A stretch of DNA of 64,000 nt from Myxococcales bacterium (GTDB lineage Bacteria; Myxococcota; Bradymonadia; UBA7976; UBA1532): positions 1 through 64,000 of the forward strand of contig JACKDM010000019.1 in the NCBI GenBank assembly GCA_020633515.1, given 5' to 3'. This document shows positions 25,540 to 53,947 of the stretch, piece after piece (position 1 is the first letter of the stretch; each line of letters opens with the position of its first letter). The translations under genes were made by a program, and so were the position numbers. The notes beneath the pieces were generated by a model that had not been told where the DNA came from, ran no database searches, and was given only the letters and a program-made list of their open reading frames with translations.

Positions 25540-28167
25540 TCACTCCGCGAGCCACCCCACGAAGCGCACGTCCGCCGCGCCGTCGACCGCCGCGGTCGTG
25601 TGCTCGTCGCGGTGCGCGCCGGTGAGCTGCACCCCGAGGCGGCCGCTCGCGTCGAGGCCGTGGTGCACCACCGCGAGGCCGTCGGGGCTCCAGCCGAACG
25701 GGCGCAGCGGGCCGTCGAACGCCGAGCCGAGCCGCAGCGGCGCGCCGCCGTGCACGTCGAGCCGCCACGCGCCGCAGTCGGCGCAGCCCGCGCCCGCCTC
25801 CCCGGCGGCCATCACCACCGGCGGCCGCCCCGGGCCGGTCGGGCCGAGCCCGCGCAGCCCCGCCGGCGAGGGCAACGCCAGCTCGACCGCCACGCCCGTC
25901 GGCGGCGCGTACCACGCCCGCCCGGCGCCCAGTTCGAACAACAGCCCCTGCTCGACCGGCCCCCACAGCCGCACCACGTCGTCGGGCGCGCCGTTGGTGA
26001 CGGTCATCCACGGCCCGTTGCCGCCGATCGGGACCCGCTGCACCAACAACTGCCGCGCCGTGTCGCGCACGAAGTACACATCGGCCGGCGTCGCCATCGC
26101 CGTCGCGCCCCACTCGGGCCGCCGCACGGCCGGATCGGGGTCGATCAGCGGCCGCACGTCGAACTGTTCGCCGAACAGCCGCACCACCCCGAGCCCCCAC
26201 GCCGGGCAGCCCTCGCCGAAGCAGGCGCCGTAGAGCAGCGCGTCGTCGTCGATCCACGTCAGCGGGTAGGTCCCCTGCCCCGGCACGAGCACGAACAGGC
26301 CCTCGTCGGGCTCGGGGTCGTCGAGCTCGACCACCGGGATCCCCGTCGTCGGCCCCGGCGCGACCTGCACCGTCAGCCGCGCGGCGTTCGGCGCCATCAG
26401 CGCCGGGTACTGCCGGCTCTGCCACAGCCCCACGCCGTCGGGGTAGTCCTCGCCGGTCACCCGCGCGCCGCGCAGCGTGCCGAGCAGCGCGTCGCCCGCG
26501 CGCCACACCACCCAGCGGCCGTCGGGGCTCATCTGCGCGTCGAGCGCGTTCGGGCGGTTGTTGATCCGCGCGATAGGGATCGGCACCGCCGCCGGATCCT
26601 GCAGGTCGAGCGCCATCAGCGGCCCGTCGCCGGCCTCGAAGAACACCGCGTGCCGCCCGCTCGTGATCACGCCCCGCGGCGCCGCCTCGCCGCTCAGATC
26701 GGCGCGCTCCGGGATCCACACCGAGGCCACCGGCGTCGCCCCATCCGGCCCGCTCCGCACCAGCGTCGCCGGCGCCGGCGTCGCGTGCCGCACCAGCAGC
26801 GCCTCGCCCACCACCCCCAGCGGCGCCCCGATCGCCGGATCGTCCCGCGTCGCCGCGGTCAGCGTCGCCCGATCGAGCGCGTCGACCCGCCCCGGCGCGG
26901 TGAACCAGACGTGCCCCGGCCCGAACCCGGCGAAGGTCGCCGCGAGCGGCGGCAGCACCACCGGCGCGCCACCCTCGGCCCGGATCGCCCACCGCGACTC
27001 GCCCACGCCCGCCAGCGCCAGCGCACCATCGGGCGCCACCGCGAAGATCGTCGCCCCCGGCGCCAGCGCGCCCTGCCGATCGAGCGGCGCCGGGCCGTCG
27101 TCGCCGAGCGTGCTCCGCCAGACCGCGCCCTCGGCGTCGATCGCCACCACCGCGCCGGCCACGACCCGGGCGTCGACCCACGCCGACGCCAGCCGATGCA
27201 GCCGCGGCGGCCACACCGACAGATCGATCACCGCGTCCCCCGCCGGCGCCACCGCCCACCGCGCCCCGAGCGCCGGCGGCCCGATCCGCGGCGGCGCGGC
27301 GAGCGCGAGCCCGGCGACCCGGCGCCCGGCGATATCGACCACCGCGAGCGCCTCCGAGCCGCGCACGAAGCCGAAGCCGCCCACCACCGCCAGCGGCGCC
27401 GCCGCGTCGACCCCGGCCAGATCGGCGTCCTCGGGCGCCCACGGCTCGCCCGCCTCAGCGCCGAGCGTGCGCCCGACGAGGCGCCCGTCGAGCCACCCGA
27501 AGAAGGCCGTCTCATCGGCCGCGCCGACGCCGAGCGCGGTCGCGATGCCATCGGCGGTGACATGCACCACGCCGCCATCCGATCCCACCAGCGCCAGCGC
27601 CTCGCCCGCGAGCGGGACCACCCGCGCGCCCGGCACCAGCGGGGCGCGGTGGGTGCGCGGCGCGAACTCCGAGGCCGCCGGATCCCAGCGCAGCACCGCC
27701 GTCGAGTCGACCGCGTCGAGCGGCCGCGTCGCCCACAGCGCGCCCTCGCCGCCATAGAACGCCCGCGGCGCCCGCGCCCCGGTCGGCGTGACCACCGGCG
27801 CCCCGCCCTCGACCCGCACCGCGACCACCTCGGCCGCCGGCAGCGTCGCGCCCCCGATCGGCGGCACGTCGGCGACGAGCGCGAGCATCGCCGGCAGCGG
27901 CTCACCGAGACACGCGCCGTCGACGCAGCGATCGGCCGTGGTCCATGGGTCGAAGTCATCACAGGGATCGAGGCACGATGGCATGTCGGGCAGCGGCCCG
28001 TCGCTCGGCGTCGCGTCGGGCGCCGCGTCGAACACGGCATCGGGACCAGCGGCGTCGACCGCCGCGTCCTCGTCGGGCAGGATGATGATCGGCTCTTCGT
28101 CCGGCTCCTGGCAGCCCGCGGCGAGCAGGGCCAGCCCGAGCAGTGCGGGGCGCAGCGGGGCGCGCAT
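25540..28167 (-). CDS. Large beta-propeller-like lipoprotein, unknown function
   Basis: 875 residues from ATG 28167 (GAGGAG upstream). Lipobox LALLAAGC is followed by an Asp/Ala/Pro linker typical of these lipoproteins and a small Cys cluster (CLDPCDDFDPWTTADRCVDGAC). The rest is beta-rich, with blade-like segments such as MSPDGRWVVWRAGDALLG, DVYFVRDTARQLLVQRV and FGWSPDGLAVVHHGLDASG, as in TolB/WD-like propellers. It is probably displayed on the outer membrane. The stop lies 12 bases before the esterase gene's stop-side neighbour on the same strand, so the two genes are likely co-transcribed. Confidence 0.82.
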   Translation of the reverse strand: MRAPLRPALLGLALLAAGCQEPDEEPIIILPDEDAAVDAAGPDAVFDAAPDATPSDGPLPDMPSCLDPCDDFDPWTTADRCVDGACLGEPLPAMLALVADVPPIGGATLPAAEVVAVRVEGGAPVVTPTGARAPRAFYGGEGALWATRPLDAVDSTAVLRWDPAASEFAPRTHRAPLVPGARVVPLAGEALALVGSDGGVVHVTADGIATALGVGAADETAFFGWLDGRLVGRTLGAEAGEPWAPEDADLAGVDAAAPLAVVGGFGFVRGSEALAVVDIAGRRVAGLALAAPPRIGPPALGARWAVAPAGDAVIDLSVWPPRLHRLASAWVDARVVAGAVVAIDAEGAVWRSTLGDDGPAPLDRQGALAPGATIFAVAPDGALALAGVGESRWAIRAEGGAPVVLPPLAATFAGFGPGHVWFTAPGRVDALDRATLTAATRDDPAIGAPLGVVGEALLVRHATPAPATLVRSGPDGATPVASVWIPERADLSGEAAPRGVITSGRHAVFFEAGDGPLMALDLQDPAAVPIPIARINNRPNALDAQMSPDGRWVVWRAGDALLGTLRGARVTGEDYPDGVGLWQSRQYPALMAPNAARLTVQVAPGPTTGIPVVELDDPEPDEGLFVLVPGQGTYPLTWIDDDALLYGACFGEGCPAWGLGVVRLFGEQFDVRPLIDPDPAVRRPEWGATAMATPADVYFVRDTARQLLVQRVPIGGNGPWMTVTNGAPDDVVRLWGPVEQGLLFELGAGRAWYAPPTGVAVELALPSPAGLRGLGPTGPGRPPVVMAAGEAGAGCADCGAWRLDVHGGAPLRLGSAFDGPLRPFGWSPDGLAVVHHGLDASGRLGVQLTGAHRDEHTTAAVDGAADVRFVGWLAE

Positions 28168-30908: not shown

Positions 30909-43571
<12,663 letters not shown>

Positions 43572-43603
43572 GCGGTTCCCCCTGGCGGCGAGCAGTCGGA
43601 GGT

Positions 43604-43609
43604 ATTTTA
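43604..43609 (-). promoter_or_regulatory. -10 box (TAAAAT) of the giant lipoprotein gene
   Basis: TAAAAT matches the -10 consensus at 5 of 6 positions. It lies 32 bases upstream of GTG 43571 in the divergent gap with the pirin gene. The -35 region is weak, which could mean an activator or another sigma factor. Confidence 0.35.
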
Positions 43610-43758
43610 GGTGATCGGGCGGGGCGGTGGCGACTTGGGAATACCGCTTGCGGTGCAAAGTTGCGGCGTTCGTGCAGCGGCGCCGGTTCGGGTTGCGCTC
43701 GCGGCCGCGGCGGTGTCTCCTCCTGCGGCGACACGGGAGACGCGACGGAGGGTGCGAG

Positions 43759-44637
43759 ATGGCCGACGAGAGCGCGATCGAGGTGGTGATCACGCCGCGC
43801 GAGCGGGACCTGGGCGGCTTCACGGTGCGGCGGGTGCTGCCGTGGGTGAAGCGGCGCATGGTGGGGCCGTTCATCTTCCTCGACCAGATGGGGCCGGTCG
43901 AGCTCGCCGCGGGGACCGGCATGGACGTGCGCCCGCACCCCCACATCGGGCTCGCGACGGTGACCTATCTCTTCGAGGGTGCCTTCGAGCACCGTGACAG
44001 CCTGGGATCATTCCAGGTCATCCGACCCGGTGCGGTCAACTGGATGACCGCCGGGCGCGGCATCGTACACTCCGAGCGCACCGGCGCGGCCGAGCGGGTG
44101 ATCGGCGGGCGGGTCTTCGGGATGCAGTCGTGGGTGGCGCTGCCGGTCGAGGCCGAGGAGGTCGCGCCGTCGTTCGTGCACCACCCGGCCGAGACGCTGC
44201 CGGCGTTCGGCGTCGAGGGCGCCGCGCTGCGGCTGATCGCGGGCACCGCCTACGGGCAGAAGTCGCCGGTCGAGGTCTTCTCGCCGCTGTTCTACGTCGA
44301 CGCCGTCGTGCCCCGCGGCGCCCGGCTGCCGCTGCCCGCCGAGCACGAAGAGCGCGCGGTCTACGTCGCGGTCGGCGCCGGCGCGGTCGCCGGCGAGCCG
44401 GTCGAGGCGGGCACCATGGTCGTCGTGCGCCCCGGCGCCGACGCCGGCTTCACCGCCGCGGTCGACAGCCGGGTGATGTTGCTCGGCGGCGCCCCGGTCG
44501 GCCCCCGGCTCGTGTGGTGGAACTTCGTCTCCTCGCGCGCCGACCGCATCGAGCAGGCCAAGGCCGACTGGGCCGCCGGCCGCTTCGGCAAGGTCCCGGG
44601 CGACGAGATCGAGTTCATCCCGCTGCCGGCGGAGTGA
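43759..44637 (+). CDS. Pirin-family protein
   Basis: 292 residues, a bicupin. The N-terminal metal-binding cupin has [17 protein letters not shown] and GRGIVHSER. The C-terminal signature [19 protein letters not shown] is typical of bacterial pirins. Members bind Fe and include quercetin dioxygenases and redox-sensing partners of metabolic enzymes. ATG 43759 has GGAGGG ten bases upstream. It lies 43 bases before ctaC in the same direction, which suggests it is read with the oxidase operon, an unusual neighbourhood for pirin. Confidence 0.92.
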
Positions 44638-44680: not shown

Positions 44681-45658
44681 ATGACCGCCGCGCGCCGCCG
44701 ACCGATCGCTGCCATCTGCCTCGCCCTCGCCGGCTGTGAATCGCCGCAGTCGGCGCTCTCACCCGCCGGCCGCGACGCCGAGCAGGTCGCGACCTTGTTC
44801 TGGGTCATGCTCGCCGGCGCCGCCGTCGTCTGGCTCGCGGTGATGGGCGCCGCGCTCTACGCGGTCGTGCGCGGCGGGCGAGAGCACGCCGAGCGCAGCG
44901 CGCGGCTGTTCATCGTCGGCGGCGGCATCGTCTTCCCCACCGTCGTGCTCACCGTGCTGCTCGTCTTCGGGCTGCGGCTCCTGCCCGGCATGCTCGACCT
45001 CGGCCCCGAGCCGCCGGTGGCGGTGGTCTCGGGCGAGCAGTGGTGGTGGCGCGTCACCTACCAGCACGACGGCGGCGAGCTCGCCGCCGCCAACGAGCTG
45101 CGCCTCCCGCTCGGCCGCCGCAGCGCGGTCGCGGTCGTCAGTCCCGATGTCATCCACGCGCTCTGGGTGCCCGCGCTCGGCGGCAAGGTCGACGCGATCC
45201 CCGGCCGCCAGAACCACCTCGCCTTCGAACCGACCCGCGAGGGCACCTATCGCGGGCTCTGCGCCGAGTACTGCGGGCTCTCGCACGCGCTGATGAACCT
45301 CGACGTCGTCGTCATGCGCCCCGACGCCTACGCCGCCTGGCTCGCCGCCGAGGCCGCGCCCGCGAAGCCACCCGCCGATGACATCACCCGCCGCGGCGCC
45401 GATGCCTTCGCTGCCCATGGCTGCGGCGCCTGCCATGCCATCCGGGGCACCGCGGCCAATGGCAGACTCGGCCCCGACCTCACCCACGTCGGCGGCCGCG
45501 TCCGCATCGGCGGGGTGCTCCCCAACACCGTCGATGGCTTCCGCGACTGGCTCACCCACCCCGAGCATCACAAGCCCGGCGTACACATGCCATCGTTTCA
45601 CATGCTCCCACCCGCCGAGCTCGACGCGCTCGCCCGCTACCTGGACGAATTGCATTGA
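44681..45658 (+). CDS. ctaC: Cytochrome c oxidase subunit II with C-terminal cytochrome c (caa3 type)
   Basis: 325 residues. A lipoprotein-type signal (CLALAGC) and two membrane helices (about 37-60 and 75-100) precede the CuA domain: QWWWRVTY, then SPDVIHALWVPALGGKVDAIPG, and copper ligands in CAEYCGLSHALM (~194-205). A C-terminal c-type domain has CGACH at about 248 and a Met ligand in HMPSFHML. It takes electrons from a soluble or membrane cytochrome c and passes them through CuA to subunit I. Its TGA overlaps the TTG start of ctaD. Confidence 0.95.
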   Translation: MTAARRRPIAAICLALAGCESPQSALSPAGRDAEQVATLFWVMLAGAAVVWLAVMGAALYAVVRGGREHAERSARLFIVGGGIVFPTVVLTVLLVFGLRLLPGMLDLGPEPPVAVVSGEQWWWRVTYQHDGGELAAANELRLPLGRRSAVAVVSPDVIHALWVPALGGKVDAIPGRQNHLAFEPTREGTYRGLCAEYCGLSHALMNLDVVVMRPDAYAAWLAAEAAPAKPPADDITRRGADAFAAHGCGACHAIRGTAANGRLGPDLTHVGGRVRIGGVLPNTVDGFRDWLTHPEHHKPGVHMPSFHMLPPAELDALARYLDELH

Positions 45659-48189
45659 AGACCGCACCCGACGACGTCGAGCCGCTCGCCGAGGCCCCGC
45701 CCGCCGAGGTGCAGGCCGCGCAGGTGCGCCGGCTCATGAACGCGTGGCGCACCCCGACCGGCTGGCGCTACTGGTCGGCGGTCAACAACAGCGAGGTCGG
45801 GCGCTGGTACACCGCGCTCGCGCTCGTCTTCCTGCTCTTCGGCGGCGTGCTCGCGCTGCTCATGCGCATCCAGCTCGCCGTGCCCGGCAATGACTTCGTC
45901 TCGGCCGACACCTACGACCAGCTCTTCACCCTGCATGGCTCGGTGATGATGTTCCTGTTTGCGGTGCCGGTCTTCGAAGCCTTCTCGATCATGGTGCTCC
46001 CCGAGATGCTCGGCGCCCGCGACCTGCCCTTCCCCCGGCTCTCGGCGTTCGGGTTCTGGTGCTTCGCGATCGGCGGTGTCTTCGTGTGTGGCTCGATCTT
46101 CTTCGGCCAGGGACCGCGCGGCGGGTGGTTCATGTATCCGCCGCTGACGACCCAGTACGTCGAAGGCTACGGCCCCGACATCTGGCTGCTCGGGCTCTCG
46201 TTCATCGAGATCGCGTCGATCGCCGCCGCCGTCGAGCTGCTCGTCGGCGTGCTCAAGTGCCGCCCGCCGGGCATGCGCATCAACCTGATCCCGCTGTACT
46301 CGTGGTACATCCTCGTCGTCGCGGTGATGATCCTGTTTGCGTTCCCGCCGCTGATCGCCGGTGACATCCTGCTCGAGCTCGAGCGCACCTTCGACTGGCC
46401 GTTCTTCGACCCGTCCCGCGGCGGCGATCCCTTGCTGTGGCAGCACCTCTTCTGGATCTTCGGCCACCCCGAGGTCTACATCGTCTTTCTGCCATCGGTG
46501 GCATTGGTCGCGATGATCGTGCCGACCTTCGCCCGCACCCCGATGGTGGGGTATGGCTGGATCGTGCTCGCCGCGCTCGGGACCGGGTTCTTGAGCTTCG
46601 GGCTGTGGGTGCATCACATGTTCACCACCGGCCTGCCCGGGATCTCGCTCGGGATCTTCTCGGCGGCGTCGGAGGCGGTCGCGATCCCGACCGGGGTGCA
46701 GCTCTTCTGCTTCGTCGCGACGCTGCTCGTCGGCAAGCTGCGCTTCACGGTGCCGATGCTCTATGTGCTCGGCGGGCTCTCGACGTTCGTCATCGGTGGC
46801 TTGACCGGTGTCATGGTGGCGTTGGTGCCCTTCGACCTGCAGGCGCATGACAGCTACTTCGTCGTCGGCCACCTGCACGCGGTGCTGCTCGGCGGCACGA
46901 TCTTCCCCATCGTCGCCGCGGTGCATTACTTCTTCCCGCTCGTGCGCGGGCGCATGCTCTCGGAGAAGCTCGGGCGGATCTCGTTCTGGCTGATGTTCAT
47001 CGGCTTCAACGTCACCTTCCTCCCGATGCACGCGACCGGGCTGCTCGGCATGCAGCGGCGGGTCTTCGCCTACCCCGACGAGCCCGGGCTGTGGGCGCTC
47101 AACCTCGCGTCGAGCATCGGCGCGTTCGTCTTGGCGGCGGGCTTCCTCATCTTCGCGATCGATGTCATCCGCCCCAAGCGCAAGGGTGAAGAGGTCGAGC
47201 GCAACCCATGGGACGCCGGCACCCTCGAATGGCTCGCCGAGGTGCCCGATCGGCCGTGGGGCGTGCGCTCGATCCCCGAGATCGACAGCCGCTATCCCTT
47301 GTGGGACCAGCCGGACTTCGTGCGCGACGTCGACGAGGGGCGCTTCTACCTGCCCGACGCCGCCGAGGAGAAGCGCGAGACGCTCGTCACCTCACCGGTC
47401 GACGCCCGGCCCGAGCAGTGCCTGCGCGTGGCGGGGCCCTCGTTCGTGCCGATGATCGCGGCGGTCTTCACCGGCGGGCTGTTCATCTTCTCGACGTTTC
47501 ACCTGTGGGTCGCCGCGCTCGTCAGCGGCGGGCTCGCGTTCGTCACCGTGCTGTACTGGCTGTGGACCGGGACCGCGCCGATCCCCGAGAAGGAGGAGAA
47601 GGACGTCGGCCTCGGGATGCGGCTGCCGATCTATGTCTCGGGGCCGAAGTCGGTGGGCTGGTGGGCGATGCTGATCACGATGCTCGCCGATCTGACCGCG
47701 TTCGTGGCGTTGGTCTTCGGCTGGTTCTTCTACTGGACCGCCTCGCCCGCGTGGCCGCCGGTGGGGCACGCGGCGCTCGCCGAGCCCGCGGCGTGGTGGG
47801 GCGGGGCGCTGGTGGGGCTCTCGTGGGTCGCGACGGTCGCGGCGCGGCGGCTCAACCGCGCGGTGCGCGCGGTCTGGTTCCATCTGGCGGTCGGCCTCGC
47901 CGCGGCGGCCGCCATCGCGGGCGCGGTGCTGCTGTGGCAGAGCGCCGATGGCGTCGATCCCACCGCGCATGTCTACGCGTCGATGCTGTGGCTGCTCGTC
48001 GGCTGGACGGTGCTGCACGTCGTCATCGGCGCGGTGATGCAGCTCTACTGCGCGGCGCGGCGGATGGCCGGCAAGATGGACGCCCGGCATGACATCGACA
48101 TCGTCAACGCCACGCTCTACTGGCACTTCGTGCTGCTCACCGCCGCGGTGACGATCGCGGTGGTGGTCGGCTCGCCGAGGTTGCTATGA
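45655..48189 (+). CDS. ctaD: Cytochrome c oxidase subunit I-III fusion (Q in place of K-channel lysine)
   Basis: 844 residues from TTG, overlapping the ctaC stop. Subunit I (~1-520) has heme a ligand LHGSVMMF, CuB/Tyr motif GHPEVYI (~271), HHMF, and HDSYFVVGHLH (heme a3 and heme a His). The D-channel entry GARDLPFPR is present, but the usual Asn pair after it is SA. The K-channel motif IPTGxK is IPTGVQ, with Gln349 where Lys is expected. Residues ~590-844 are subunit III-like (GGLFIFSTFHLW; ending NATLYWHFVLLTAAVTIAVV). The fusion reduces O2 to water and pumps protons. The ATG of the next gene overlaps its stop. Confidence 0.95.
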   Translation: MKTAPDDVEPLAEAPPAEVQAAQVRRLMNAWRTPTGWRYWSAVNNSEVGRWYTALALVFLLFGGVLALLMRIQLAVPGNDFVSADTYDQLFTLHGSVMMFLFAVPVFEAFSIMVLPEMLGARDLPFPRLSAFGFWCFAIGGVFVCGSIFFGQGPRGGWFMYPPLTTQYVEGYGPDIWLLGLSFIEIASIAAAVELLVGVLKCRPPGMRINLIPLYSWYILVVAVMILFAFPPLIAGDILLELERTFDWPFFDPSRGGDPLLWQHLFWIFGHPEVYIVFLPSVALVAMIVPTFARTPMVGYGWIVLAALGTGFLSFGLWVHHMFTTGLPGISLGIFSAASEAVAIPTGVQLFCFVATLLVGKLRFTVPMLYVLGGLSTFVIGGLTGVMVALVPFDLQAHDSYFVVGHLHAVLLGGTIFPIVAAVHYFFPLVRGRMLSEKLGRISFWLMFIGFNVTFLPMHATGLLGMQRRVFAYPDEPGLWALNLASSIGAFVLAAGFLIFAIDVIRPKRKGEEVERNPWDAGTLEWLAEVPDRPWGVRSIPEIDSRYPLWDQPDFVRDVDEGRFYLPDAAEEKRETLVTSPVDARPEQCLRVAGPSFVPMIAAVFTGGLFIFSTFHLWVAALVSGGLAFVTVLYWLWTGTAPIPEKEEKDVGLGMRLPIYVSGPKSVGWWAMLITMLADLTAFVALVFGWFFYWTASPAWPPVGHAALAEPAAWWGGALVGLSWVATVAARRLNRAVRAVWFHLAVGLAAAAAIAGAVLLWQSADGVDPTAHVYASMLWLLVGWTVLHVVIGAVMQLYCAARRMAGKMDARHDIDIVNATLYWHFVLLTAAVTIAVVVGSPRLL

Positions 48190-48575
48190 GGTCCAAGACT
48201 GCGGCGGCGCACGATGAGCGCCGGGAGAGCCTGTGGTGGCTCGCGGCCTCGCCCGCGATCTGGTGCCTTCATCTGATCGTGTGTTACAGCGCCGCCGCGA
48301 TCTGGTGTGCCAGGAGCGGGCGCGACGCCTCGCTCGCCGAGATCCGGTGGCTGATCCTGGGGGCGACGATCGCCGCGCTCGGTGGCATCGCCGCGGTCGG
48401 CTGGCGCGGCCGCGGCCGGCGTCACTTCGGGGCCGATCCGCACACGCACGCCGATGACACGCCGGAGGATCGCCATCGCTTCCTCGGGCTCGCGCTGATG
48501 CTGTTGAGCGGGCTCGCGGCGGTGGGGGTCGTCTTCGTCGCGCTGCCGGCGGTCTTCATGGAGACGTGCCGGTGA
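48186..48575 (+). CDS. Small membrane protein of the cytochrome oxidase operon
   Basis: 129 residues with three hydrophobic segments: SPAIWCLHLIVCYSAAAIWC, WLILGATIAALGGIAAVGW and GLALMLLSGLAAVGVVFVALP. The first (SPxIWxxHLxxCYxxAAIWC) is a pattern seen in small proteins beside CoxI/CtaG genes. It could be a subunit IV-like or assembly protein; the exact family is not recognised. It overlaps ctaD (ATGA) and ctaG. Confidence 0.75.
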   Translation: MRSKTAAAHDERRESLWWLAASPAIWCLHLIVCYSAAAIWCARSGRDASLAEIRWLILGATIAALGGIAAVGWRGRGRRHFGADPHTHADDTPEDRHRFLGLALMLLSGLAAVGVVFVALPAVFMETCR

Positions 48576-49204
48576 ACGCCGCGCTCGCCGCCGGCGCCGG
48601 GGTGCTCGCGCTCGCCTGGATCGCCTTGCCACGCCTGGGTTTGCCGCCGTTCACCGGGCACATGGTGATGCACATGAGCGTCGTCGCGCTCGCCGCGCCG
48701 CTGCTCGCGCTCGGGCTCGCCGGCGGGCGATGGGATCCGGTGCGGCGGTGGCCGGCGCTGATGTCGCCGGTGGTGGCGTCGATGGCCGAGGCGGTGCTGG
48801 TGTGGGGCTGGCACGCGCCGGCGCTGCACCACGCGGCGCGGCAGGCGGCGTGGGCGCGGGCGGCGGAGCAGGGCTCGTTCCTGCTCGCGGGGCTGTGGCT
48901 GTGGTGCGCGGCGCTGGGCGGCGGGGCGGCGACGCGGCGGGCGCGCGCGGCGGGCGGGGTCGCGGGGCTGTTGCTGACGTCGATGCACATGACGCTGCTC
49001 GGCGCGCTGATCACGCTGAGTCATCGGCCGCTGTATTCGCATGGCACGCATGGCATGGATGGGATCGATGGCATGAGCGGCCTGTCGCCGCTGCACGACC
49101 AGCAGCTCGGCGGCGCGGTGATGCTCGTCGCCGGCGGGCTCGCCTACCTGCTCGGCGGGATCGGGCTCGCCGGTGACGTGATGCGGCGGCGGGAGGCGCG
49201 ATGA
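48572..49204 (+). CDS. ctaG: Cytochrome c oxidase assembly protein CtaG (caa3 family)
   Basis: 210 residues from GTG 48572 (GTGA overlap with the preceding stop; GGAG upstream; GTG 48566 is also possible). Multi-helix membrane protein with the CtaG_caa3 motifs HMVMHMSVVALAAPLL, WGWHAPALHHAA and TSMHMTLLGALITL, His/Met-rich as expected for copper handling. It helps insert copper into the oxidase. The loop SHGTHGMDGIDGMSGLSPLHDQQLGG precedes the last helix. The stop overlaps the ATG of the cytochrome gene. Confidence 0.9.
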   Translation: MNAALAAGAGVLALAWIALPRLGLPPFTGHMVMHMSVVALAAPLLALGLAGGRWDPVRRWPALMSPVVASMAEAVLVWGWHAPALHHAARQAAWARAAEQGSFLLAGLWLWCAALGGGAATRRARAAGGVAGLLLTSMHMTLLGALITLSHRPLYSHGTHGMDGIDGMSGLSPLHDQQLGGAVMLVAGGLAYLLGGIGLAGDVMRRREAR

Positions 49205-50433
49205 AGACCTGGGTCAAGCGGGGGCTGTGGATCGGCGCCGGACTCGCCGCGCTCGGGGCGGCGGTGGTGTCATCGGGCTTGGTGTCGCTCTCGGCGCGCG
49301 CCGGGCACTGGGAGGTCACCGAGCAGCTCCTCGCCTTTGCCAAGGACCGCTCGGTCGCGACGCATTCGCTCGGGGTCGAGCCGCCGGTCGCGCTCGACGA
49401 TCCGGCGCTGATCCTGCGGGGCGCGGGGCACTACGAGGGCGGCTGCCGCTGGTGCCATGGCGCGCCGGGGCGGCCGCAGCCGGCGGTGGGGCAGGCGATG
49501 CTGCCGCCGCCGACCGATCTGCCGCCGTTCGCGCGCGACGAGCCGCCAGCGCAGCTCTATCGAGTCATCCACGATGGCATCAAGTTCACCGGCATGCCGG
49601 GCTGGCCGGCGAAGGACCGCGGCGACGAGGTCTGGGCGCTCGTCGCGTTCGTCAAGGCGCTGCCGGGGATGAGCGCCGATGACTACGACCGGCTGGTGTG
49701 GGGGCGCGAGGCGGCGCCGGCGGGCGCGCCGGCGGTGGTGGCGGTGGCGTGCGCGCGGTGCCATGGCTTCGATGGCAGGGGCCGCATGGCCGGCGCGTTC
49801 CCCCGGCTCGCCGGGCAGCGCGAGCCGTACCTCGTCGGGGCGCTCGAAGCCTACGCGAGCGGGGCGCGGCCGAGCGGGGTGATGGGTCCGATCGCGGTGG
49901 CGCTGCGAGGCGACGATCTGCGCGCGGCGGCGCGGTACTACGCGGGGCTCGATGGTCTAGCCCGAAAAGTGCGCGGGTTCCCGTCGCGAGCGACGGGAGA
50001 CCGCCTCGCAGGCGGCTCCGCGGAGGGTGAGCCAGCGCAGGCGTACCCCGAGGTACGTCGAGCATGGCGAGGCCGAGCAGAGCCGCATGGGAGGCGGGAT
50101 CGCGGCGCGCAGCAGGGAACTCGCGCACTTTTCGGGCTAGGCGCGGCGGCGGAGGCATCGGCGGCGGGGGGGCGGATCGTGCGCGAGGGCGTGCCCGATG
50201 ACAAGATCCCGGCGTGTCATGGCTGCCATGGGCCGACGGCGCACGATCGCAACCCGGCCTATCCGCTGCTCGCCGGCCAGGACGCGCGCTACCTGCGGGA
50301 GCAGCTCGTGTTGTTCCGCGAGCGGCGGCGGGGCGGGTCGCAGTACGCCGAGCTGATGCAGGCGGTGCGCGCGCACGGGCTCGACGACGCGCAGATCGCG
50401 GCGGTGAGCGTCTGGTATGGGGCGGCGGAGTGA
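49201..50433 (+). CDS. Membrane-anchored triheme cytochrome c carrying an in-frame 60-codon insertion
   Basis: 410 residues. An N-terminal anchor (about 8-32) precedes three heme sites: CRWCH (~82), CARCH (~185) and CHGCH (~337), each followed by a cytochrome c-like helix and Met ligand region (FTGMPGWP; PLLAGQDARYLREQL). It probably donates electrons to the caa3 oxidase encoded upstream. Between hemes 2 and 3, residues ~253-312 are encoded by a 180-bp repeat element. Without it the chain would read DGLGAAAEASAAGG. The insert is Arg/Gly-rich and unlike the rest, but the frame is kept. Confidence 0.92.
   Translation: MKTWVKRGLWIGAGLAALGAAVVSSGLVSLSARAGHWEVTEQLLAFAKDRSVATHSLGVEPPVALDDPALILRGAGHYEGGCRWCHGAPGRPQPAVGQAMLPPPTDLPPFARDEPPAQLYRVIHDGIKFTGMPGWPAKDRGDEVWALVAFVKALPGMSADDYDRLVWGREAAPAGAPAVVAVACARCHGFDGRGRMAGAFPRLAGQREPYLVGALEAYASGARPSGVMGPIAVALRGDDLRAAARYYAGLDGLARKVRGFPSRATGDRLAGGSAEGEPAQAYPEVRRAWRGRAEPHGRRDRGAQQGTRALFGLGAAAEASAAGGRIVREGVPDDKIPACHGCHGPTAHDRNPAYPLLAGQDARYLREQLVLFRERRRGGSQYAELMQAVRAHGLDDAQIAAVSVWYGAAE
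49958..50139 (+). mobile_element. 180-bp palindromic TA-flanked element, copy 1 (inside cytochrome c gene)
   Basis: Terminal inverted repeats GCCCGAAAAGTGCGCG / CGCGCACTTTTCGGGC continue imperfectly to about 24 bases. The element is flanked by TA on both sides (49958-49959 and 50138-50139), as for Tc1/mariner- or IS630-type transposition. Body plus one TA is exactly 180 bp, so the host frame is preserved. Internal hairpins include CCGCCTCGCAGGCGG and CGTACCCCGAGGTACG. It has no transposase, so it is MITE-like. A second copy lies at 53243-53424. Confidence 0.8.
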
Positions 50434-50901: not shown

Positions 50902-53196
50902 TCAGAAGCGGGCGGTGAGCTCGGCGCCGAAGGTGCGGGGCTCGTTGAGGAAGCCGGTGAGGTTGTTGAAGTCGATGCCACCCTCGAACTCTGTCTGGTC
51001 GAGCAGGTTGCGGCCGTAGGCGGCGGCTTCGAGCGCGGTGTCGTCGTCGATCTGCCATGTGTAGCCGAGGCGGGCGCCGACTTCGAGCAGTCCGTCGCTG
51101 CGGAACTCTTCGGAGTCATAGAGGAAGAAGCGGATCTCGCTGCGCCAGGCGAGGTCGACGAAGGCGAAGACCTCGTCGTCGCCGCGGACGGGGAGGCCGT
51201 AGCGGGCGGTGAGGTTGGCGATCCATTCGGGCGCGAGCGGGAGCGAGTTGCCGTCGATGACATAGGTGCCGGCGTCGGCGTCGGCGACGGGGTCGCGGAA
51301 GGTGATGCCTTGCGCGGCGCCGCCGACGACGCTGAGGCCGGGGTCGTCGATGGCGGTGCGGTTGAGGCTCAAGCCGGCGGTGAGGAAGAGGCCGGCGAGG
51401 GGGGCGGATGAGAGGTCGAGTTCGAAGCCATAGCCATGGGTGGCGTCGGCGTTGATGAGGGTGTTGAAGTTCTGCGCGCCGCCGACGGCGGTGAGCTGCT
51501 GGTCGGTGAGGGTGTAGTAGAAGCCGCTGAGGTTGGCGCGGAGCTGGCCTTGGAAGAGGCGGGTCTTGAGGCCGGCTTCGTAGGAGAGGATCTTCTCGCT
51601 GTCGGCGGTGGAGATGACATCGCCGAAGAGCACGCGGCCTTGGATGGAGGGGGCGCGGAAGCCACGGGCGACGCGGGCGTAGAGGTTGATGTCTTCGGCG
51701 GCGAACCAGGTGAGCGAGGCGTCGGCGCTGAGGAAGTCGTCGTCGAGCTCGACGGTCTGCTCGGTGAGCGCGCCGGCGCCGACGGGCGAGGTGTCGCGGC
51801 GGGCGGTGAAGTCCTTCTGCTCATGGGCGTAGCGGGCGCCGGCGCGGAGCTCGATGGCTTCGACGGGTCGGTAGGAGAGGCTGCCGAAGCCGGCGAGCGC
51901 GAGGGTCTGCTGGCTCTGGGTGGCGTAGCCGTTCTGGGGGTTGCCGGGCGCGAGCGAGTCGTAGCTGAAGCTCTGGATGTCGAGGTCTTCGTGGAAGAAG
52001 TAGGCGCCGACGACGAAGCCGAAGGGGCCGAGCTCCTGGCCGGTGAGGCGGAGCTCTTCGGTGAACTGGCCGAGCGCGGGCACGGCGTCGGCGGTCTCGG
52101 AGGGGAACGGGATGACACCGGGTCCCATGGGGAGGTCGGGCAGGAAGGCGGCGCCGTAGCCGCCGTCGATGTCACCGCGGCTGTAGGTCTCGGCGGTCTC
52201 GTAGGCGGTGATCGAGGTGAGGGTGAGGCGGCCGAGCTCTTGAGTGAGGGTGAGCGCGCCGCCGAGGCTGTCGAGGGTCTGCTCGTTCTGGCCGTCTTGG
52301 GAGACGGCGTATCGGTCGAAGCCATCGGCGAGGCCGCCGCCGGGGGCGATGGCGTTGGCGCGGAAGACGCGGGCGGTGCCGCGGAGGCGGCGGGCGTGGA
52401 TGTTGAGGAGCGCTTCGAAGTCGCCGAGGGTGAGGAGGAGCTGGGCGCGGGCGGCGAGGTCGTCGAAGCCTTCGAGGTCGGCGTCGGCGTCGGTGAGGGT
52501 GTTGTCGACGGAGTCGTCGCGGCGCTGGTAGAGCAGCGAGAGGCGGCCGGCGAGCAGATCGTCGACGAGGGGGCCGCCGAGGGCGCCTTCGGTCTCGACG
52601 AGGTTGAAGCTGCCGTAGGCGACGCTGGCGTAGGCGTCGAGCTCATCGGTGGGGCGCTTGCTCTCGAGCTTGATGGTGCCGGCGGGGGTGTTGCGGCCGA
52701 AGAGGGTGCCTTGCGGGCCGCGGAGGACCTCGACGCGGTCGAGGTCGAAGGCGGGGAAGGCTTTGAGGATGGGGTTCTCGAGGACGACGTCGTCGTAGAC
52801 GAGCGAGACGGGCTGGCTGGCGTTGAGGTCGAAGTCGGTGTTGCCGAGGCCGCGGATGTAGAAGCGGGGGAAGGTGCGGCCGAAGGAGGACTCGGCGTTG
52901 AGGCTGGGGACGCGGGCGGCGAGGAAGCGGATGTCGACGCCGGCCGCGGTGAGCGCGTCGAGCTGGTCGTCGGCGAGGGTGGCGACCGAGGCGGGGACGC
53001 GCTGGAGGTTTTCGCGAGTGCGGGTGGCGGTGACGATGATCTCTTCCATGCCGCCAGCGGCGGGGGCCTGGTCGGTGGCTTCGGTGCCTTCGGGAGCTTG
53101 GGTGGCTTCGGTGCCTTCGGGCGCGTCCTGCGCGATGGCAGGAGCGGCGAGGGCGAGGGTGAGTGCGGCGGTGAGCGTGCGGGGCGCGTGCGACAT
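50902..53196 (-). CDS. TonB-dependent outer membrane receptor
   Basis: 764 residues. Signal peptide MSHAPRTLTAALTLALAAPAIAQ, a short repeat (PEGTEATQAPEGTEAT), a TonB box (EEIIVTATR), the plug (VPASVATLADDQLDALTAAG; FYIRGLGNTDFD; DRVEVLRGPQGTLFGRNTPAGTI) and a 22-strand-type barrel ending in the typical aromatic C-terminus (FGAELTARF). It imports an unknown ligand such as a siderophore, cobalamin or carbohydrate. No transport or regulatory gene lies next to it. A copy of the 180-bp element occupies the space 46 bases upstream of its ATG. Confidence 0.93.
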   Translation of the reverse strand: MSHAPRTLTAALTLALAAPAIAQDAPEGTEATQAPEGTEATDQAPAAGGMEEIIVTATRTRENLQRVPASVATLADDQLDALTAAGVDIRFLAARVPSLNAESSFGRTFPRFYIRGLGNTDFDLNASQPVSLVYDDVVLENPILKAFPAFDLDRVEVLRGPQGTLFGRNTPAGTIKLESKRPTDELDAYASVAYGSFNLVETEGALGGPLVDDLLAGRLSLLYQRRDDSVDNTLTDADADLEGFDDLAARAQLLLTLGDFEALLNIHARRLRGTARVFRANAIAPGGGLADGFDRYAVSQDGQNEQTLDSLGGALTLTQELGRLTLTSITAYETAETYSRGDIDGGYGAAFLPDLPMGPGVIPFPSETADAVPALGQFTEELRLTGQELGPFGFVVGAYFFHEDLDIQSFSYDSLAPGNPQNGYATQSQQTLALAGFGSLSYRPVEAIELRAGARYAHEQKDFTARRDTSPVGAGALTEQTVELDDDFLSADASLTWFAAEDINLYARVARGFRAPSIQGRVLFGDVISTADSEKILSYEAGLKTRLFQGQLRANLSGFYYTLTDQQLTAVGGAQNFNTLINADATHGYGFELDLSSAPLAGLFLTAGLSLNRTAIDDPGLSVVGGAAQGITFRDPVADADAGTYVIDGNSLPLAPEWIANLTARYGLPVRGDDEVFAFVDLAWRSEIRFFLYDSEEFRSDGLLEVGARLGYTWQIDDDTALEAAAYGRNLLDQTEFEGGIDFNNLTGFLNEPRTFGAELTARF

Positions 53197-53242: not shown

Positions 53243-53424
53243 TAGCCCGAAAAGAGCGTGAGTTCCAGTCGCGAGCGACGGGAGACCGCCTCGCAGGCGG
53301 CTCCGCGGAGGGTGAGCCAGCGGAGCCGTACCTGAGGTACGGCGAGCATGGCGAGGCCGAGCAGAGCCGCATGGGAGGCGGGATCGCGGCGCGCAGCAGG
53401 GATACTCACGCTCTTTTCGGGCCA
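53243..53424 (-). mobile_element. 180-bp palindromic TA-flanked element, copy 2 (upstream of TonB receptor)
   Basis: Inverted repeats GCCCGAAAAGAGCGTGAGT / ACTCACGCTCTTTTCGGGC, flanked by TA on the left and CA on the right. The unit is again 180 bp. The core is nearly identical to copy 1, with two compensating one-base indels. The outer stem differs from copy 1 on both arms in a matched way (TGCGCG to AGCGTG), so base pairing is kept. It lies between the GNAT stop and the TonB receptor start, where it could form part of the receptor mRNA leader. Confidence 0.8.
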
Positions 53425-53450: not shown

Positions 53451-53927
53451 TCAGGAGAGGCGGCGCACGAAGATGATGAGGTCGTCGTCGGGTTTGTAGA
53501 AGCCGCGGATGCGGGCCTCTTCGGTGAAGCCGGCGGCGTGGTAGAAGCCGACCGCGGCGCCGTAGGCTTCCTGGCTGGCGGTCTCGACGCGGACGAGGCG
53601 GGCGCCGTCGGGTTTGATGGCTTCGTCCATGGCGGCGATGAGCTGGCGGGCGATGCCTTTGCGGAGGTGATCGGGGTGGGTGGCGAGCCAGTAGAGGTCG
53701 TAGGTGCCTTCGGTCATCGGGGTGGGGCCGAAGCAGATGTAGCCGGCGATCTGGCCGTCGGTCTCTTCGGCGAGGATGAAGTGATAGTCGGTCTGTTCGG
53801 GGCGGTCGAGCGCGATGTCGACGAGCTCCATGGCGACGCCGACCTCGGAGGGGTCGAAGGCGGGGGTGTCTTCGATGAGGTGGGCGAGCGCGGGGCGGCG
53901 AGCGGGGGTGAGGGGGACGAAGCGCAT
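53451..53927 (-). CDS. GNAT-family N-acetyltransferase
   Basis: 158 residues with the GNAT fold: GQIAGYICFGPTP (strand 4 region), acetyl-CoA loop LATHPDHLRKGIARQLIAAMD (motif A, RKGIA), and AVGFYHAAGFTEEARIRGFY (motif B). The substrate is unknown. It starts 20 bases after the ATP-grasp gene, which suggests co-transcription and perhaps successive action on one amino-acid or peptide substrate. Confidence 0.9.
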   Translation of the reverse strand: MRFVPLTPARRPALAHLIEDTPAFDPSEVGVAMELVDIALDRPEQTDYHFILAEETDGQIAGYICFGPTPMTEGTYDLYWLATHPDHLRKGIARQLIAAMDEAIKPDGARLVRVETASQEAYGAAVGFYHAAGFTEEARIRGFYKPDDDLIIFVRRLS

Positions 53928-53947
53928 GGTGTGGTCTCGGGCGGGGG

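Follow-up and report, generated by a model that had tools for sequence, protein, structure and literature searches.

A probable 178-bp palindromic MITE lies in frame within a three-heme cytochrome c gene of a GC-rich, Myxococcota-like genome

The stretch of DNA analysed here (64,000 nucleotides, hereafter the window) carries two copies of a palindromic repeat, one inside a gene and one between genes. Copy 1 lies in a 410-aa ORF (49201–50433, +) that Pfam matches (Cytochrome_CBB3, Cytochrom_C) and invariant heme columns mark as a three-heme cytochrome c, with CxxCH motifs at residues 82–86, 184–188 and 339–343; the copy sits between hemes 2 and 3. This ORF ends an operon-like run on the forward strand (45655–50433, +), in which it follows a heme-copper oxidase ORF (844 aa, COX1 domain), a small ORF and CtaG. 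Copy 2 occupies 182 of the 254 intergenic bases between a TonB-dependent receptor gene downstream of it (50902–53196, −; Pfam) and a GNAT acetyltransferase gene on its other side (53451–53933, −; coordinates of the stretch given to Pfam, the start not being fixed). Both genes are on the same strand; 46 bp separate copy 2 from the receptor ATG, and 26 bp separate it from the stop of the GNAT gene.

With both TA flanks, copy 1 covers 49958–50139 (body 49960–50137, 178 bp) and adds residues 253–312 to the cytochrome in frame; copy 2, flanked by TA on the left and CA on the right, covers 53243–53424 (body 53245–53422, 178 bp), and neither copy is assigned a strand. Copy 1 begins and ends with the terminal inverted repeat GCCCGAAAAG (left end 49960–49969, +; right end 50128–50137, −). 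These perfect 10-bp ends are identical in both copies and part of a longer stem, and GCCCGAAAAG or its complement occurs four times in the 64 kb, at exactly the four element ends. The copies share 93.4% identity (BLASTN) and are separated by 11 substitutions, one of them in the flank (TA vs CA), and by two single-base gaps that cancel, so that both bodies are 178 bp long. Coordinates, inverted ends, body length and the second copy all agree with a preliminary description made from the sequence alone, as does the TA on both sides of copy 1; the flanks of copy 2, however, are TA/CA, not TA/TA. At copy 1 the left border reads CTAG (49957–49960; host C and TA, then the element's G), the right border reads CTAG as well (50137–50140; the element's C, the duplicated TA, then host G), and the emptied target is CTAG too. 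Body plus one TA makes 180 bp, and an insertion in a gene therefore adds 60 codons; this length and the proposed in-frame junctions, GAT GGT CTA before the element and CTA GGC GCG after it, were confirmed. MITEs are defined in PMC5896051 as elements of 100–400 bp with terminal inverted repeats and no protein of their own, and the repeat has this size and structure (178 bp, 10-bp ends, no gene of its own beyond open frames). TA duplication with a matching empty site is found for copy 1 (the empty site being that of homologue P0002, at the protein level), and the TA/CA of copy 2 is imperfect.

A protein search with the cytochrome returned 917 matches, and the best 120 of these were compared. By our own rule for the motif, three CxxCH motifs are present in 120/120, while the distance between hemes 2 and 3 is 155 in the window protein (P0001) versus 91–117 in the other 119 of these best 120. 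In P0002 and P0003 it is 95, that is, 155 minus 60. Within a 19-row alignment P0002 (88% identical there) runs in register on either side of the insertion and is shorter by exactly 60 residues, at a site where the homologues already differ in length, and excising the insert leaves GGT CTA GGC with a single Leu, the same as in P0002. A comparison with orthologues lacking residues 253–312 had been set in advance as a check, and P0002 lacks precisely those residues; the proposed insertion between the second and third heme domains likewise stands, with frame and heme motifs kept. Among six organism-named cytochrome relatives in the matches listed, there were one Archangium, one Myxococcales, two Sandaracinaceae, one Nannocystis and one Elusimicrobia, and all but the last we take to be Myxococcota. 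From these relatives, and from MopE-type metal-binding repeats in a giant RHS protein of the window, we take the host to be probably an uncultured relative of the Myxococcota.

In its codon usage the insert stands apart from the gene (GC by codon position of 0.83/0.68/0.65 in the insert versus 0.78/0.56/0.91 in the rest of the gene; CAI-like index of 0.22 versus 0.70). In an AlphaFold model built on the 19-row alignment (mean pLDDT 77.7), residues 253–312 are the sole segment of at least three residues with pLDDT below 50. Judging by this model, the 60 residues probably form a disordered, floppy loop in a linker of already variable length between hemes 2 and 3, and the prediction on that basis is that the cytochrome with its insert may still fold and work. 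Such a stable mRNA hairpin could, at the same time, attract RNase III or impede ribosomes.

Each copy folds into one long hairpin, with RNA MFE values of −134.7 kcal/mol (copy 1; z −11.5) and −126.7 kcal/mol (copy 2; z −11.8) that 0 of 200 shuffles equalled. Among 3191 scanned segments of 182 nt, the copies ranked 3rd and 5th by energy per base, at GC contents of 0.73 and 0.70, whereas the other 23 of the top 25 had higher GC (0.77–0.86). A chance palindrome is ruled out by the shuffles and the scan together. There are 71 pairs in copy 1 and 68 in copy 2, with 66 common to both. Three pairs differ between the copies at both positions yet remain paired, a compensatory pattern that permuted substitutions produced 0.11 times on average and that 0 of 20,000 permutations brought to three; one more pair is altered on one side only and also still pairs. 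Two altered pairs are broken in the structure of copy 1, one of them being the flanking TA, and none in that of copy 2. The differences between the copies are concentrated at the tip, at the 3' end and in the outer stem, and two stretches of 55 and 60 columns are invariant (P 0.0017; counting 10 events, 0.022). Homologues without the insert, together with the hairpin and its paired ends, uphold the original view of a mobile palindromic element that duplicated TA at copy 1. Transposon hairpins can keep their pairing through templated quasi-palindrome correction, and the pairing could be kept here either by such correction or by selection on the hairpin. The 5' arm of copy 1 also holds two perfect local inverted repeats, at 49980–49997 (CCCGTCGC-GA-GCGACGGG) and 50001–50015 (CCGCCT-CGC-AGGCGG), which are possible rivals of the long stem.

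When the reverse-strand reading of copy 1 was used as a protein query, one protein was recovered, P0121 (E 6e-18; 320 candidates). It starts with MKHTPR, continues with 60 residues that resemble the reverse frame of copy 1 (47/60 identical over the stretch compared) and goes on with LAAGAAVLALCAAPAVAQ, so that a signal peptide-like start is split after residue 6 by 60 residues. Without them the protein begins MKHTPRLAAGAAVLALCAAPAVAQ, with a positive n-region, a hydrophobic core and an A-x-A site (judged by Kyte-Doolittle and by eye, with no signal-peptide program), and is apparently exported. It belongs to a cluster of 2 members found on 9 contigs of up to 352 kb; it gave no Pfam family at E up to 10 and no match in plasmids. 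The copies known are two at the DNA level in 64 kb and one at the protein level in P0121, and the latter, as a second in-frame case elsewhere, supports the original interpretation. As with RPE, in-frame insertion is found in unrelated protein genes: exactly 60 codons were added to both the cytochrome c and P0121, in opposite orientations. At the protein level, 63/68 pairs of the palindrome remain possible in P0121 (control mean 59.9, P 0.117, a weak test), and two forced double changes still pair (P 0.045). The forward-strand query, copy 1 in its + frame, returned the window's own protein only (133 candidates). Both protein searches detect only in-frame cases that share 5-residue words with the query in proteins of 0.55–1.75 times its length, and the cytochrome and P0121 cases were found because they are in frame.

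At the DNA level, the exact-ends pattern (the two ends at 143–173 spacing) gave 30 loci in 84,980 species genomes, none of them BLASTN-similar to either copy at E 0.01, and 3 loci in viral contigs, none similar, where three core patterns gave 0. Two of the species-genome loci, L008 2871–3049 (Eisenbergiella MAG) and L009 5976–6151 (Lachnospiraceae MAG), are strong hairpins that share the 10-bp ends but are of other sequence. Plasmids had no match to copy 1 at E 1e-5, and with copy 2 and a limit of E 10 there were 80 plasmid records, all falling short of 80% query coverage and the 10 listed spanning 27–31%; phages had no match to copy 2 at 1e-5. Since no similar loci appeared in species genomes, plasmids or phages, the family either is uncommon in these genomes or has ends that have diverged. 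Within the window, the next best hit of a covariance model beyond the two copies (each found on both strands) was partial, at 52217–52272 (E 0.028). A 28-bp BLASTN match to copy 2 at 28119–28146 (85.7%, E 7e-4) came without covariance-model support, and both matches are taken as chance. No published record of the element was found in a literature search whose scope excluded most subscription papers, and among the matches listed for GCCCGAAAAG in paper texts no title named a bacterial repeat element.

The target of the element looks like YTAR rather than any TA. Once the two elements are taken out, 420 TA sites are left in the window and only 4 of them are YTAR, versus 84 expected under a first-order model, and both insertion sites (CTAG and CTAA) are among these 4 (P = 6.8e-5, in a post hoc test that was framed after the sites had been seen, with n = 2 (+1) for target statistics and with the CTAA of copy 2 assuming that its right CA once was TA). 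CTAG does not occur beyond the element borders (0 versus 49 expected under the first-order model, window 1–64000) despite 418 TA there, and the codons of P0121 permit (C/T)TAG. Sorted by codon position of the T, the 310 TAs of 24 genes (starts set mechanically; 23 of the genes matched by Pfam) fall 294/6/10 into Tyr codons, the NTA phase and the split phase, and CTA makes up 3 of 1374 Leu codons. The emptied cytochrome gene has 12 TAs, 11 in Tyr codons and one in a CTA codon (11/1/0 by phase), and it is the CTA that the element occupies.

These phases have different consequences for translation. An insertion in the Tyr phase makes TAG at once with the element's first G; in the split phase, reading through the + orientation ends at a TGA in either copy, and the − orientation can be read through in copy 1 but not in copy 2. 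In the CTA (Leu) phase the 180-bp addition is in frame and open in both orientations, for both window copies. A YTAR rule excludes the Tyr phase, in which YTAR would amount to a stop codon; within a gene, YTAR would be confined to the CTA/TTA (Leu) phase or the xYT|ARx phase and would never fall in a Tyr codon. The in-frame outcome would thus follow from a length of 180, a multiple of 3, from the phases available to YTAR and from a Leu phase that is open in both orientations. Open frames as such number 3 of 6 in each copy, whereas the commonest count is 4/6 in 182-bp slices of the window (73.5% GC) and 2/6 in random sequences generated from copy 1 by a first-order model. The element's open frames are unremarkable by themselves and within chance for its base composition; the open host frame and open reverse strand to which the preliminary description drew attention are indeed present, but at the level that composition predicts. 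It had further suggested that the element tolerates or exploits insertion into coding DNA. Tolerance agrees with the kept frame and heme motifs, while exploitation is not supported, given the foreign codons, the low-confidence model and the chance-level openness.

Taken together, these results make it very probable that the repeat is a non-autonomous 178-bp palindromic MITE which inserts at YTAR with duplication of TA, would be moved by an IS630-like (or IS5-like) transposase and is tolerated in the cytochrome linker. That transposase would be supplied in trans. The alternative that the cytochrome natively possesses the 60 residues, as a linker or domain, could appeal to the variable linker length among homologues (91–117 between hemes 2 and 3), but the insert is present in 0/119 of the other homologues (best 120 of 917), and the same DNA is also found between two other genes as copy 2; the homologue comparison rules this alternative out, and we assign it practically no probability. 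The IS630/mariner mover proposed at the outset was not shown: a scan of 35 window ORFs of our choice gave no match to a transposase family, and copy 1 and P0121 are explained just as well by an IS5-like mover with a 4-bp CTAG/YTAR duplication. Read as a TA duplication, the flanks are TA/TA at copy 1, TA/CA at copy 2 and compatible by codons at P0121; read as a 4-bp duplication, with a body of 176 bp, they are CTAG/CTAG at copy 1 and CTAG/CCAA at copy 2. An IS5-type transposase that duplicates CTAG/YTAR, instead of an IS630 type with TA, would explain the CTAG on both sides of copy 1, is compatible with the codons of P0121 and has a parallel in MITEPsy1, listed as 'IS5?' and placed at CTAG or YTAA, duplicated on insertion, in the entry for it in PMC3189936. 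Under this reading, however, copy 2 has two mismatches versus one under the TA reading, and IS630 is also reported to favour TA in CTAG, according to the title of Tenzen and Ohtsubo 1991 in the references of PMC2170065. Copy 1 fits both the IS630 preference and a MITEPsy1-type target, and we consider the IS5-type mover a possible but somewhat unlikely choice.

As to why the insertions are in frame, we tentatively suggest, at less than even confidence, that the element is frame-neutral by its choice of target: YTAR avoids Tyr codons, and a 180-bp unit with one phase open both ways keeps genic insertions translatable. If so, in-frame 'protein-coding palindromes' follow from target rule and length, and selection is needed only for the length and one open phase. 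A coding-adapted selfish element, as proposed for RPE, in which selection keeps the element open for genic life in either orientation, would fit the Leu phase of YTAR targets being open in both orientations in both window copies, the two cancelling single-base gaps that preserve 178 bp in both, and the gain of exactly 60 codons in each of two proteins, with the element in opposite orientations. We hold it to be unlikely, as the openness is within chance for composition, the insert uses codons in a way foreign to the gene, copy 2 reads in another frame between the two gaps, where the + strand peptide is unconserved, and being in frame is what allowed both protein cases to be found. More doubtful still is a regulatory RNA or DNA structure (a processing site or leader element), with copy 2 functional in the TonB receptor leader and the genic copy a by-product. 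The compensatory changes that preserve pairs, the clustering of differences in outer stem and tip beside the invariant runs of 55 and 60 (P 0.0017, or 0.022) and the share of the intergenic bases filled by copy 2 (182/254) point that way. Against it, no promoter- or terminator-like site was found at copy 2, no Rfam family reached its gathering score anywhere in the window or matched the element even at E up to 1, and in a transposon hairpin pairing can also be preserved by templated quasi-palindrome correction.

By comparison of descriptions, the element is a new family of the same kind as ERIC and RPE. In-frame palindromic MITEs with open frames are represented in PMC2229807 by ERIC, RPE, the 107-bp Correia form and YPAL, with TA ends in most, and are reviewed in PMC10969869. 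ERIC (IRU/RU-1) resembles the present element as a small hairpin repeat with TIR, TSD, TA termini, open frames and in-frame gene fusions (PMC2229807), but is 127 bp long and described from Enterobacteriaceae and Vibrionaceae (PMC2229807, PMC10969869), whereas the body here is 178 bp in both copies. RPE are likewise palindromes fused in frame in unrelated genes, and in one tested protein the insert was neutral or slightly detrimental (PMC2229807, PMC10969869); their lengths are given as 105–146 bp, with TA not in all of them and the TSD stated to be unknown (PMC2229807). As far as descriptions allow comparison, the present element differs from RPE in its 178 bp, GC of 0.69–0.71, TA duplication and YTAR target. 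The hosts of RPE are AT-rich intracellular bacteria. Coxiella QMITE1 and QMITE2, likened here by description, are palindromic MITEs of another host, some of them in frame in genes (PMC5896051). YPAL/RU-2 of Yersinia has termini without TA in Table 1 of PMC2229807; MITEPsy1 of Pseudomonas syringae shares insertion at CTAG or YTAA but has 100 nt, an 18-nt TIR and a 4-nt duplication (PMC3189936); and REP is a palindrome of 20–40 bp (PMC3733652), in contrast to the 178-bp hairpin here.

The present case adds a TA-duplicating, probably YTAR-targeting in-frame palindrome from a GC-rich, Myxococcota-like genome to known cases that come mainly from Rickettsia, enterobacteria, Neisseria and Coxiella. 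New here are the uninterrupted homologues available for comparison, the compensatory changes and a YTAR rule that offers a simple possible explanation for in-frame insertion; the reason suggested for such insertions is a target rule that bars the lethal codon phase, not adaptation of the encoded peptide. Elsewhere in the window, a 4345-aa ORF (30909–43946, −) with MopE-type Cu-binding repeats, PKD/Ig domains and RHS repeats probably encodes a giant surface protein.
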